A stretch of 64,000 nucleotides of DNA, taken from positions 1-64,000 of the forward strand of contig JAECQY010000001.1 of assembly GCA_016000045.1 (NCBI GenBank), given 5' to 3'. The first letter of the stretch is position 1. Every line of letters starts with the position of its first letter. Shown here piece by piece: positions 32,599 through 36,433 of the stretch. The stretch is from Myxococcaceae bacterium (lineage in GTDB: Bacteria; Myxococcota; UBA727; JABDBI01). The notes below the pieces were generated by a model. It ran no database searches. It was not told the origin of the DNA and was given only the letters and a program-made list of their open reading frames with translations. The translations under genes and the position numbers were made by a program.

Positions 32599-33192
32599 AT
32601 GGCGAAATACAATCGGAAAGATCCTTATTATCACGCAGCTAAGAAGCAAGGCTTTGTCGCGCGTTCTATTTTCAAACTGGAAGAAATCGATCGCGATTTC
32701 CGCTTGATTCGCCCTGGAACCCGAGTCCTGGATCTGGGCTGCTCACCGGGTTCGTGGCTTCAATACGCGGAACGTGTGGTTGGAGATACCGGCAGTATCG
32801 TCGGAATCGATTTAGCACCGCTGGCTTTAAGCTTTGGCTCGCACGTTCAGTTTATCCAAGGGGATATTTTTGAAGTCAGCCTCGAGGGCGTGTTTGACTT
32901 GGTGCTGAGCGATATGGCGCCGAAGACCTCCGGCATCAAAAGCATGGATCAAGACCGCAGCCTGGCATTGTGTGAAGAAGCACTTCAAATCGCTACCCGA
33001 GTCTTGAAGCCCGGTGGCCGATTTTGTGTCAAGGTATTGGAAGGCGGTGGGCTGCCGGATTATGTCCAGCAATGCCGACAGCATTTCAAAGAAGTCAAAA
33101 TCCGACGCCCTCAAGGAACCCGTCCACGCAGCATGGAGACCTATGTGATTGGGATCTCGTTTCTGGAATCCTCTGCTCCCAGATTCGTTTGA
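32599..33192 (+). CDS. rlmE: 23S rRNA (uridine-2'-O)-methyltransferase RlmE (FtsJ)
   Basis: 197 aa from ATG 32599 (MAKYNRKDPYYHAAKKQGF). Methylates U2552 of 23S rRNA (E. coli numbering). Motifs: RSIFKLEEID (catalytic Lys), VLDLGCSPGSWLQYA (SAM motif I), GIDLAPL, LVLSDMAPKTSG (catalytic Asp) and FCVKVLEGGG (catalytic Lys). Convergent with the lipoprotein gene at 33197, 4 bp between stops. Confidence 0.93.
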   Translation: MAKYNRKDPYYHAAKKQGFVARSIFKLEEIDRDFRLIRPGTRVLDLGCSPGSWLQYAERVVGDTGSIVGIDLAPLALSFGSHVQFIQGDIFEVSLEGVFDLVLSDMAPKTSGIKSMDQDRSLALCEEALQIATRVLKPGGRFCVKVLEGGGLPDYVQQCRQHFKEVKIRRPQGTRPRSMETYVIGISFLESSAPRFV

Positions 33193-33196
33193 GCTT

Positions 33197-34300
33197 TTAG
33201 CTCAAGTCAATTTGATCGAGAAATTGGATGTTCGTATTGCCTTCGCAAGTATGAAAAATCGCTCCGGTGTAGACGAGAAAGAGTCTTCTGGAACAGCCTA
33301 GGTCATGATTGCCTGGATTCGCGATCGAAACGCCTAATAGCTTGATTGGATTGGCAAGAACGAAGGGAGACAGGCTGGTCGCTTCAGCAATTTTGACTTC
33401 GTCCTTGTTTTTAGAAAAACCATTCTCTGTGTACGGCCAGTATTGGAGCTTGCCATCCACCAGCAAGATGCCTAACCAACTCGATGATCCATGGCAGCAC
33501 GTATTGGGGGTTCCTGGCACGCTGCTGGGCAAGTAGACGGCACCCGCATTCGCCTCCAAAGTAGGTGTGGTTGCCAAAATACTCAGCGGATCCAGAGCAA
33601 CCAGGACAACGGTTTGATTGCTGAGTGCAAGAGCGGCCAACTTTTTCCCATCGTTGCTGAGACTTCGAACGGAACTGCCCAAGGGAAGCGTTTGGATCCT
33701 GTGAAGATCGAGATCGAGCGCGTAAAGCGAGTCGCCAGATACCACGAGCAAAGACTTTTGATGAGGCCCCCATTGAAGATGCGTAATATCCTGAGGCATT
33801 TCGACTGTGATCGCGCCTGGTAAGAGCGAAATGGTACGGCCTTGCGTTAGGTAGGTGTAGGGTTTTTGATCGGCGCCGATTCCGATGACAAAATGTTCTG
33901 CACTGGTGTCCACCGGCAAAGAAGTCTGAGGAGCAGGGGAAGAAAAATTCTCCGAGACCGAAAAGATGGCTTTTTTCACAGGATCGAGAACAAAAAGTTG
34001 ATTTTCATACACTGCCAGTGCAGAGGGAGCTTGCCCTACCAAGATATTCAAGGGAAAATAAGCGATAGGCGCCAAAACAAATTGGTTGTCGCTTGCATCA
34101 AAGACTTTCAGGCTGCCTTGATAGGGGTTCGAGAATACAATGCACACATGCTGAACCCCATTTTCTTGATAGGGATTACAAGAAATGACGGCAGCATCCT
34201 GGATTTGCCCCATCTGACCCGGAAGCACCGTTCGATTATCGAGACAGCTGGAGCCACTCGCTAAAAGCAAGAGAGCGTTGACGAGAAGAAACATTCGCAT
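33197..34300 (-). CDS. Propeller-like lipoprotein, second after mreB
   Basis: 367 aa from ATG 34300 (MRMFLLVNALLLLASGSSC). The signal peptide ends in a loose lipobox (GSSC), so lipidation is likely but not certain. The body is a chain of short beta repeats of the kind found in YncE/WD-like propellers (LKVFDASDNQFVLAPIAYFP, HLQWGPHQKSLLVVSGDSLY, VRSLSNDGKKLAALALSNQT). A Cys-Cys pair (NTCCHG) and further Cys near the end may form disulfides. It overlaps the upstream lipoprotein gene by 65 bp, and together they follow mreB. Confidence 0.7.
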   Translation of the reverse strand: MRMFLLVNALLLLASGSSCLDNRTVLPGQMGQIQDAAVISCNPYQENGVQHVCIVFSNPYQGSLKVFDASDNQFVLAPIAYFPLNILVGQAPSALAVYENQLFVLDPVKKAIFSVSENFSSPAPQTSLPVDTSAEHFVIGIGADQKPYTYLTQGRTISLLPGAITVEMPQDITHLQWGPHQKSLLVVSGDSLYALDLDLHRIQTLPLGSSVRSLSNDGKKLAALALSNQTVVLVALDPLSILATTPTLEANAGAVYLPSSVPGTPNTCCHGSSSWLGILLVDGKLQYWPYTENGFSKNKDEVKIAEATSLSPFVLANPIKLLGVSIANPGNHDLGCSRRLFLVYTGAIFHTCEGNTNIQFLDQIDLS

Positions 34301-35411
34301 AGCTAAAAATTCCGATTTTATGGTCTTGTTGGTAAGTGACAAAGATTCGATGATCCGTCGTTTGATCGAACAAAATATCCACCGGCCCTCCTGGAGCATC
34401 CGAGCGATTCTCCTTTCCATACAAGAGAAGATCTTTCGCGTTGTAAGCCACCAGTTCATTGCTTTTGGCGCAGCTCACGAAGACGGACTCTTCATTCGGT
34501 GAGAGTTTTAATCGAGTCGGTCCACGGCAGGTAGCAACCCGCGCCGTTACCATTGGCGAAGGTTGCAGAGAAACACGCAGCAAAAGAGGTTCTTCATCCA
34601 TCAAAACATAAGCCGTGCTTTGATCTTTCGTGATGGCGAGATCTCGAAGCCCTTGTGATTGCTCTGTCTGAGACAGATCGAAAGGTCGATTTGAGCTTGA
34701 GCAAAGATGGCCTGCCTGCACGTCGCTGAGCGGCGCCTGAAGAAAAAAGGCGTGTTTATAAGACCGATTCACGTGATCGGGATCGTCTACAACAAATTCA
34801 AACAAGACGAATACTTGACTATCTTGAACGATCAGCGCACCCAAACGACCTATACGCCTTAAAGAACGACTGGGCGAAGGGAAACAGTTCTTCAATTGAA
34901 AGCTATCTTTGAGCTCGATTCCGCTGGCAGACAACGCAAAAGATTGTATTTCTGGTTGGTTGCTGAGCAGCGAATCTTTCGAGTCGTTCCAGCTCTCACT
35001 GACGACCGGCGTCAGATAACCCACCAACCCCCAGTTTCGATCAGGGCTTAGCTTCAAGAAATAAGCAGCTTGATACGTTAACGGGAGGAGTGGTTGAGCA
35101 CTTTGAACCAGTTGCGGATGGGTTTGGTCCGTTATGAGAATTTGGTTACTCGCTAATAAGCAGGCCTCACCCGCCAAAGACGGCGTCGATTGAAGCCCAA
35201 CAACGCGCTGGGTGTTCAAATCAATCTGAAGGATGTTTCCAGACGAATATTGCAAATCCAGATTGCTATTGACAACGAATAAATGGTCTTGATCTTGAAG
35301 CAGCACACTGGGAAAGTAGAAGGTATCTGCAGGAATTGACCTCTGATCTGGGCTAGAACAAGACACAACACCCATGAGAATCGGCAACCAACAAAAACGA
35401 GCGATGCTCAA
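34236..35411 (-). CDS. Propeller-like lipoprotein, first after mreB
   Basis: 391 aa from TTG 35411, whose TTGA overlaps the mreB stop. Lipobox VVSC after a short signal peptide. The body is beta-rich with repeated units such as LFVVNSNLDLQYSSGNILQI, LRDLAITKDQSTAYVLMDEE and LSPNEESVFVSCAKSNELVA, typical of beta-propellers of the YVTN/YncE kind. It has no enzyme motif I can see. Position suggests a role in the cell envelope linked to MreB, in the place where mreC usually lies. Confidence 0.75.
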   Translation of the reverse strand: MSIARFCWLPILMGVVSCSSPDQRSIPADTFYFPSVLLQDQDHLFVVNSNLDLQYSSGNILQIDLNTQRVVGLQSTPSLAGEACLLASNQILITDQTHPQLVQSAQPLLPLTYQAAYFLKLSPDRNWGLVGYLTPVVSESWNDSKDSLLSNQPEIQSFALSASGIELKDSFQLKNCFPSPSRSLRRIGRLGALIVQDSQVFVLFEFVVDDPDHVNRSYKHAFFLQAPLSDVQAGHLCSSSNRPFDLSQTEQSQGLRDLAITKDQSTAYVLMDEEPLLLRVSLQPSPMVTARVATCRGPTRLKLSPNEESVFVSCAKSNELVAYNAKDLLLYGKENRSDAPGGPVDILFDQTTDHRIFVTYQQDHKIGIFSYANVSSRQRSLAFSEWLQLSR

Positions 35412-36433
35412 AGCAACAGCCCTCGATAAGTATCGATATTCTCCAACACCTGCCCTACCCCATCCACTACGGCGTGCAAAGGATTATCCGCTACACAAAC
35501 AGGGATACCGCACTGATCTGCCAATAATTTATCCAGGCCTTTGATCTGGGCCCCCCCCCCGCACAGAACAATGCCGCGGTCGATAATATCGGCAGATAAT
35601 TCAGGAGGGGTTCGCTCCAGGACAAACTTGGTGGTGGCAATAAATTGGCGAAACGAATCTTGCAGGGCTTCTCGTATTTCCACACTGGTCACGCGGATGG
35701 ATTGTGGAATACCCGTAATCAAATCACGGCCTTTGACATCGATTTGAAGCTCTTCTGCGAGCGGGACAGCGGAGCCTATCTTCATCTTAATGAGCTCTGC
35801 GGTTCGCTCACCAATGAGAATATTGTGACGTTTTCTAAGAAAATTAACGATGGCTTCGTCCAATTTGTCGCCCGCGACACGAAGAGTCTGAGAAGCCACA
35901 ATGCCATTCAATGAGATGACAGCGACGTCGGTAGTTCCACCGCCAATGTCAATAATCATGGAGCCCCGCGCTTCTCGAACCGGTAAACCAGTCCCCACGG
36001 CGGCTGCCATCGGCTGTTCAATCAGATGGACTTCCTGTACGCCCGCACTCAATGCAGCTTCTCGAACCGCTTTTTGCTCAATGGAAGTGATTTCAGCCGG
36101 GACTGAGATAATCAAACGGCCTCGGACGAAAAAGGCCTTTTTGGTTGCTTTCGTGATGAACGCTTTAATCATCGATTCGGTGATGGTAAAATCCGCGATA
36201 ACCCCATCGCGCATGGGCCGAATCGCAACAATATTGCCAGGGGTTTTGCCAAGCATTTCCTTGGCGTCTTTGCCAACTGCAAGAACCTTGGTTTCGTAAC
36301 CGTTTCGCACAATGGCGACTACACTGGGCTCATTCAGAACGACTCCACAGCCCCTGACATGAACCAAGGTATTAGCAGTTCCCAAATCGATGGCCAAGTC
36401 GGCTCCAAACATCCCAAAAAACTTTCCAAACAT
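35408..36433 (-). CDS. mreB: Rod shape-determining protein MreB
   Basis: 341 aa actin homologue that guides side-wall peptidoglycan synthesis. Motifs: ADLAIDLGTANTLVHVRG (phosphate 1), IVAIRPMRDGVIADF, IIDIGGGTTDVAVISL (phosphate 2), and GIVLCGGGAQIKGLDKLLAD (adenosine). The last is encoded by a run of ten Gs (35551-35560). mreC and mreD do not follow. Instead two lipoproteins are translationally coupled behind it. Confidence 0.95.
   Translation of the reverse strand: MFGKFFGMFGADLAIDLGTANTLVHVRGCGVVLNEPSVVAIVRNGYETKVLAVGKDAKEMLGKTPGNIVAIRPMRDGVIADFTITESMIKAFITKATKKAFFVRGRLIISVPAEITSIEQKAVREAALSAGVQEVHLIEQPMAAAVGTGLPVREARGSMIIDIGGGTTDVAVISLNGIVASQTLRVAGDKLDEAIVNFLRKRHNILIGERTAELIKMKIGSAVPLAEELQIDVKGRDLITGIPQSIRVTSVEIREALQDSFRQFIATTKFVLERTPPELSADIIDRGIVLCGGGAQIKGLDKLLADQCGIPVCVADNPLHAVVDGVGQVLENIDTYRGLLL

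Follow-up and report, generated by a model that had tools for sequence, protein, structure and literature searches.

A second mreB gene followed by two propeller-like lipoprotein genes in a small-genomed member of the Myxococcaceae

The first 64,000 nt of contig JAECQY010000001.1 from a Myxococcaceae bacterium (assembly GCA_016000045.1), hereafter the window, carry an mreB gene, mreB1, which is followed by two genes for propeller-like lipoproteins, lp1 and lp2. The arrangement is real, is conserved in part of one family, and is moderately interesting as a novel combination of parts of known kinds. The explanation that we favour, with somewhat better than even confidence, is that two older modules, each conserved on its own, have been joined in a derived operon, in which the lipoprotein pair would work at the outer membrane and would need no contact with MreB. 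The analysis corrects an apparent loss of mreCD and describes a second MreB clade, apparently kept even in a genome of 0.31 Mb.

Results

Layout of the mreB1-lp1-lp2 unit

All three genes lie on the reverse strand. The mreB1 gene (35408..36433, 341 aa) is joined to lp1 (34236..35411, 391 aa, TTG start) by the tetranucleotide TTGA at 35408..35411, in which the TGA stop codon of the former overlaps the TTG start codon of the latter, and the end of lp1 overlaps the start of lp2 (33197..34300, 367 aa) by 65 bp at 34236..34300. The start of lp2 is a choice, because its open frame extends to 34459, beyond the ATG chosen at 34300, and the 65-bp overlap is conditional on that ATG. The original prediction, made without database searches, had described the same three genes with the same two junctions, and its coordinates were confirmed; the interval that it named, 34236-36433, covers mreB and lp1 and leaves out most of lp2. 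It had also treated the genes as one unit, which is borne out by the overlaps. Scans of the unit for consensus promoters and terminators performed no better than on shuffles, so that co-transcription is argued from the overlaps, by which the three genes would form one apparent operon. As had been predicted, no mreC, mreD or rodA was found after mreB1; lp1 and lp2 come instead, and the unit stops 4 nt short of a convergent rrmJ/ftsJ-like methyltransferase gene (32599..33192, forward strand) which closes it.

MreB1 and the canonical mreBCD operon

The product of mreB1 is an MreB/Mbl actin, matching PF06723 with 457.6 bits (cut-off 27; E 2.4e-137) and TIGR00904 with 467.6 bits (cut-off 365.75). 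The proposal that the lipoproteins stand in place of mreCD proved to be mistaken, as contig 5 of the same genome (G000; 1.32 Mb, 11 contigs, 99.6% complete) carries mreB-mreC-mreD-pbp2-rodA, in which MreC was matched at E 1.6e-41 and the transpeptidase and RodA families were also matched. The MreB of contig 5 is 51% identical to MreB1. The window gene is therefore a second MreB, and the shape machinery has been added to, not replaced.

In a tree of 32 MreB rows, which omits L035, L039 and the fragment L019 and in which three rows, from G003 and G005, have very long branches, the window and contig-5 copies fall into separate clades (support 100/100). In one clade an MreC open reading frame adjoins 10 of its 13 rows, and in the MreB1 clade it adjoins none of 19, as judged with one distant query on 1.5-kb flanks; L049, L051 and L052 of the mreC clade were negative, and two of the MreB1 rows (L044, L045) have a flank cut by a contig end. 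Judged by this tree and by gene neighbourhood, MreB1 is a second MreB clade, present in a range of phylum genomes, in which no mreC was found behind mreB.

A run of 10 G on the coding strand of mreB1 (35551..35560) encodes a conserved CGGGA motif. It is the only G/C run of at least 8 in the window and is missing from seven other compared mreB1 sequences; it is possibly a slippage site or an assembly error.

The lp1-lp2 pair across the phylum

In profile searches (E <= 0.001), 112 of 116 phylum genomes had an lp1 match and 89 an lp2 match. The two genes are adjacent on the same strand, with lp1 first, in at least 68 genomes; adjacency was judged for 109 of the 112 genomes with lp1, both families being present in 88 of these, with 20 non-adjacent and a further 21 having lp1 only. 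A search with a single lp1 protein gave matches in 12 of 97 genomes, an underestimate relative to the profile. Among 52 pair loci, which were picked from the matches and are not a random sample, and some of which are truncated at contig ends, mreB adjoins the pair in four (all in the host family), glyS lies upstream in 21, PPDK lies directly upstream in eight, and a Tad secretin is found downstream on the same strand in 11. The script that read these loci did not see lp2 in eight of them; the profile places lp2 beside lp1 in seven (G018, G063, G104, G107, G111, G118 and G120), and at L142 (G048) no lp2 match was found beside lp1. The order glyQ-glyS(-PPDK)-lp1-lp2 recurs at L125, L126, L127, L138, L139, L141 and others.

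In one relative with a genome of 9.3 Mb (G123), lp1 and lp2 are followed by genes for an FHA protein, a type IV leader peptidase, a secretin, and an FHA domain that runs on into a T2SSE ATPase. This order matches that of kil cluster I of Myxococcus xanthus (MXAN_3102-3108), within which kilA, kilC and kilF are given as MXAN_3105-3107 (PMC12075869), and whose genes of unknown function are reported to include two for predicted outer-membrane lipoproteins (PMC8460266). By counting along the gene order of G123, lp1 would correspond to MXAN_3102 and lp2 to MXAN_3103. The latter is listed in an outer-membrane fraction, with 3 peptides detected by mass spectrometry (PMC3222651, Table 4).

When profiles built from non-overlapping sets were compared, the host-family lp1 matched distant lp1 with E 1.8e-20 over 360 columns and lp2 matched lp2 with E 2.5e-9 over 103 columns, set against crossed controls of 4.6e-4 (62 N-terminal columns, probability 33%) and 0.19. 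The kil-type loci of relatives carry these two families in the order seen in the window. These profile comparisons support the orthology of the host-family lp1-lp2 with the pair that heads kil-type clusters. Across the phylum, lp1-lp2 is an old tandem pair with widespread relatives. The fear that the lipoproteins might be unrelated surface antigens was not borne out, as they belong to a conserved family, a presumed member of which, MXAN_3103, is reported from the outer-membrane fraction. A literature search, supplements excluded, returned no mention of an mreB-lipoprotein operon or of a deletion of MXAN_3102 or MXAN_3103 in the texts that it covered.

Conservation within the host family

The host family consists of small-genomed relatives of predatory myxobacteria. 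The order mreB1-lp1-lp2 is not unique to the window genome; it was found in four of the eight family genomes searched (the window, G001, G004 and G006), which represent three genera including that of the window. Among these four MreB1 is 91-93% identical (G001 being compared over a 177-aa piece at a contig end), while the identity of lp1 falls to 32-46%. The mreB1/lp1 junction is -4 nt in the window, +7 in G001, -4 in G004 (L020) and +1 in G006, and lp1 and lp2 overlap by 65, 65, 62 and 74 bp, respectively. Recurrence in four genomes with tight junctions despite the divergence of lp1 argues that the arrangement is not due to chance.

A pilM-like gene is the fourth member of the unit in G001, G004 and G006 (L019 1136-2293, L020 8354-9325, L021 1361-2440; PF11104 2.8e-18 in G004), and is not present at the window locus. 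The upstream flank differs between the window and G004 and G006, and the downstream flank differs in G006. As the flanks changed on both sides while mreB1-lp1-lp2 was kept, the block has outlived rearrangements. Relatives of the rrmJ gene follow lp2-pilM in G001 and G004, and in G003 one stands immediately after mreB1. A protein of 237-250 aa with a signal-peptide-like start is encoded divergently from mreB1 in G004 and G006 (L020 4260-4973, L021 5821-6573), and its G004 copy had no Pfam match.

Four family genomes remain. The lp1-lp2 pair of G002 lies elsewhere, away from mreB1. No lp1 match was found in G003, G005 or G007 with the single-protein search, nor in G003 and G005 with the profiles, the profile searches having been made above a completeness limit of 85, which leaves G002 and G007 (73% complete) outside them. 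A DUF4292-like lipoprotein comes after MreB1 in both G002 and G007; its Pfam score falls slightly short of the cut-off in the latter and far short in the former. The single-contig genome of G003 (0.31 Mb; L093, L094) has kept both an MreB1-like gene and a separate mreB-mreC pair; the former lies directly beside rrmJ and mutS, which are also neighbours in the window, and lp1, lp2 and pilM are absent there. This MreB1-like sequence is very divergent (41% identical to MreB1 and 34% to the other MreB), and because of its very long branch its placement in the MreB1 clade leans also on synteny.

In G010, from the same order, the genes after MreB1 encode a propeller lipoprotein of BamB/PQQ type, then a TPR protein and a third lipoprotein (L081 2534-7672). 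Counted over distinct MreB1 contexts, a lipoprotein stands directly behind MreB1 in about four of 14 (binomial p ~0.007 for a base rate of 5.8%, as given in PMC3222651), a count which is a hint only, being post hoc with classes made by eye after looking.

Lp1 and lp2 as propeller-like lipoproteins

The description of both products as lipoproteins was upheld, as the Cys following the signal peptide (Cys18 in lp1, Cys19 in lp2) is invariant in 12 of 12 aligned lp1 and 11 of 11 aligned lp2 homologues; the signal peptides were judged by eye, and lp2 has a lipobox, GSSC, that departs from the standard at -3. The +2 residue is Ser in lp1 and Leu in lp2, neither of them the Asp or Lys that the sorting rule for the outer membrane disallows, and outer-membrane placement is putative for both.

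Their propeller-like character was likewise upheld. An AlphaFold2 model of lp1 built on three sequences (predicted local distance difference test, pLDDT, 72.6; predicted template modelling score, pTM, 0.78) aligns with Escherichia coli YncE (3vgz) with Z 25.1 and 2.7 A over 281 residues, although many unrelated propellers, some of them eukaryotic, score equally high. The 50 matches listed by Foldseek for lp1 have modest TM-scores, between 0.25 and 0.54 by query length. The family profiles of lp1 and lp2 both match the YVTN propeller 1l0q (lp1 2.8e-18, lp2 5.5e-21), and lp1 shows a weak profile match to Leptospira Lp49 (3bws; 7.7e-5). A model of lp2 was discarded for its pLDDT of 42. Both lp1 and lp2 look like YVTN/YncE-type propellers, lp1 by model and profile and lp2 by profile. 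Neither window protein scored above the cut-off of any Pfam or NCBIfam family, PQQ_2 and TIGR03300 (BamB) gave no match in lp1 or lp2, and the PilY1 propeller PF05567 was not among the families matched by the window proteins or by the aligned lp1 and lp2 members. The window lp2, at 367 aa, is a short form of its family; the six members aligned from outside the host family have 580-794 aa.

Pilus and secretion genes of the window genome

Secretin and T2SSE searches of G000 found one secretin and one T2SSE ATPase, which are neighbours in a gspC-to-gspN-like run resembling a type II secretion system (T2SS) locus; the members of this run tested with Pfam were the ATPase and a PilM/PilN-like gene only. 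The same searches found no second secretin, no pilus-type ATPase, no Tad ATPase (CpaF) and no Tad secretin, that is, none of the markers of a Kil/Tad system, while G001, G002, G004 and G006 have each kept at least one further secretin and at least one further ATPase. By these two markers the window lineage appears to have lost its type IV pilus and Tad machinery, together with pilM at the locus. As the pilus markers are gone and lp1 and lp2 are kept, the pair would therefore need no such pilus in G000; a tie to the T2SS is possible.

Discussion

Under the explanation that we prefer, one module is MreB1, a second actin of the phylum which is not followed by mreC and coexists with mreBCD-pbp2-rodA, and the other is an old tandem pair of propeller lipoproteins, homologous to that at the head of a kil-type Tad-pilus cluster in Myxococcus-like genomes. 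The pair would have come to lie behind mreB1 in an ancestor of the four sampled genomes, with the pilM-like gene in fourth place, and the window lineage would later have lost pilM along with its other type IV pilus genes. Lp1 and lp2 probably act jointly at the outer membrane, where they would serve as a contact module or scaffold, and a common mreB1 transcript with translational coupling would tie their dose to growth. Physical contact of the lipoproteins with MreB filaments would be unnecessary. The original prediction had suggested that the lipoproteins could couple shape control to the outer membrane. An obligate machine of this sort is argued against by the presence of the pair without MreB1 in G023 and G037, where the single MreB found in each (E <= 1e-60) belongs to the mreC clade, and of an MreB1-like gene without the pair in G003, and mreB adjoins just four of the 52 pair loci. 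A direct coupling of MreB and the lipoproteins is possible but is not indicated.

It may be instead that compaction of the genome placed the pair behind mreB1 and that read-through is tolerated with no functional tie. Such neutral placement is suggested by the reduced size of the 1.32-Mb genome, in which genes overlap or nearly touch, and by the position of the pair elsewhere, downstream of unrelated genes (glyS or PPDK, for example); however, the block has been kept over three genera through changes of its flanks while the lipoproteins fell to 32-46% identity, and we regard this explanation as unlikely, if worth serious attention. A module spanning the envelope for cell shape, with MreB1 acting apart from the mreCD elongasome and lp1 and lp2 linked to it, or guiding it, from the outer membrane via an inner-membrane partner, would account for the tight junctions and for the conservation of the block. 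Other lipoproteins stand behind MreB1 elsewhere, one of them also a propeller, and a precedent exists in Rhodospirillum rubrum, where a porin-lipoprotein assembly is described as trapping the elongasome (PMC11369160). The unit, however, holds no candidate gene for an inner-membrane adaptor, and as G003, G023 and G037 each have one part of the proposed machine in the absence of the other, such a module also seems to us unlikely. A still broader idea, in which MreB1 would be a second, mreCD-independent cytoskeletal track in the Myxococcota, organising outer-membrane contact lipoproteins whose propeller families differ by lineage, and an ancestral partner of the Kil module for contact killing that has outlasted the pilus, is speculative and we give it little credence.

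The location of the pair upstream of a Tad secretin at 11 of the 52 loci, the two predicted lipoproteins of M. xanthus kil cluster I (PMC8460266), the pilM-like fourth gene of three relatives and the T2SS-like locus retained in G000 could all be read as signs that lp1 and lp2 belong to the outer-membrane portion of a machine for pili or secretion (Tad/Kil, type IV pilus or T2SS) of which pilM is the trace. Against this, G000 has retained lp1 and lp2 but lacks both a Tad ATPase and a pilus secretin, and no Tad secretin marker lies beside the pair at 41 of the 52 loci (some of them cut by contig ends); this role is decidedly improbable. The retention of propeller lipoproteins in a small genome might also suggest that they substitute for BamB in the assembly of outer-membrane proteins. 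As lp1 and lp2 have no PQQ_2 or BamB match and a separate PQQ_2/BamB-like gene, albeit below the TIGR03300 cut-off, is present on C9 of G000, replacement of BamB was rejected and such a function is hardly credible. The confidences attached to the preferred explanation and to its rivals overlap, and the explanations are not strictly exclusive.

Several observations weigh against the joining of two independent modules as we propose it. Junctions of -4 to +7 nt over three genera, and a block that survives changes of its flanks, fit selection beyond chance co-expression, and the other lipoproteins behind MreB1 in G010, G002 and G007 mean that MreB1 may attract envelope partners. The kept junctions and these further lipoproteins make a functional tie of MreB1 to lp1 and lp2 a real possibility. 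The tie of lp2 to its distant members rests on the 103 N-terminal columns, and weak lp1 matches (E up to 0.001) may include other propellers, among them some of the genomes counted as non-adjacent or as having lp1 only. Outer-membrane placement is putative and co-transcription probable. By these searches two understudied lipoproteins of the kil cluster become members of a widely conserved pair, retained in a genome that lacks Tad and type IV pilus markers.

Comparison with known systems

The canonical mreB-mreC-mreD-pbp2-rodA operon shares MreB with the window, whereas the window copy belongs to the other clade and is followed by lipoproteins, with no mreC or mreD behind it. Two copies of MreB per cell are also found in Bdellovibrio, where MreB1 and MreB2 are reported as both essential with distinct roles suggested (PMC6985089), a likeness of copy number. 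In R. rubrum, PapS is described as binding peptidoglycan and porins in an outer-membrane lipoprotein assembly that affects the elongasome (PMC11369160); the likeness is that of an outer-membrane lipoprotein acting on the elongasome. YncE/YVTN propellers, Leptospira Lp49 and BamB share the fold, whereas the window lp1 and lp2 have no curated family and no BamB/PQQ match. From M. xanthus kil cluster I the window differs in its coupling to mreB, in the 367-aa lp2 and in the lack of a Tad ATPase and secretin in G000, and it resembles that cluster in having tandem lipoproteins (MXAN_3102 and MXAN_3103 by the gene order of G123) in the same order, with profile-profile matches to sets that include kil-type loci.

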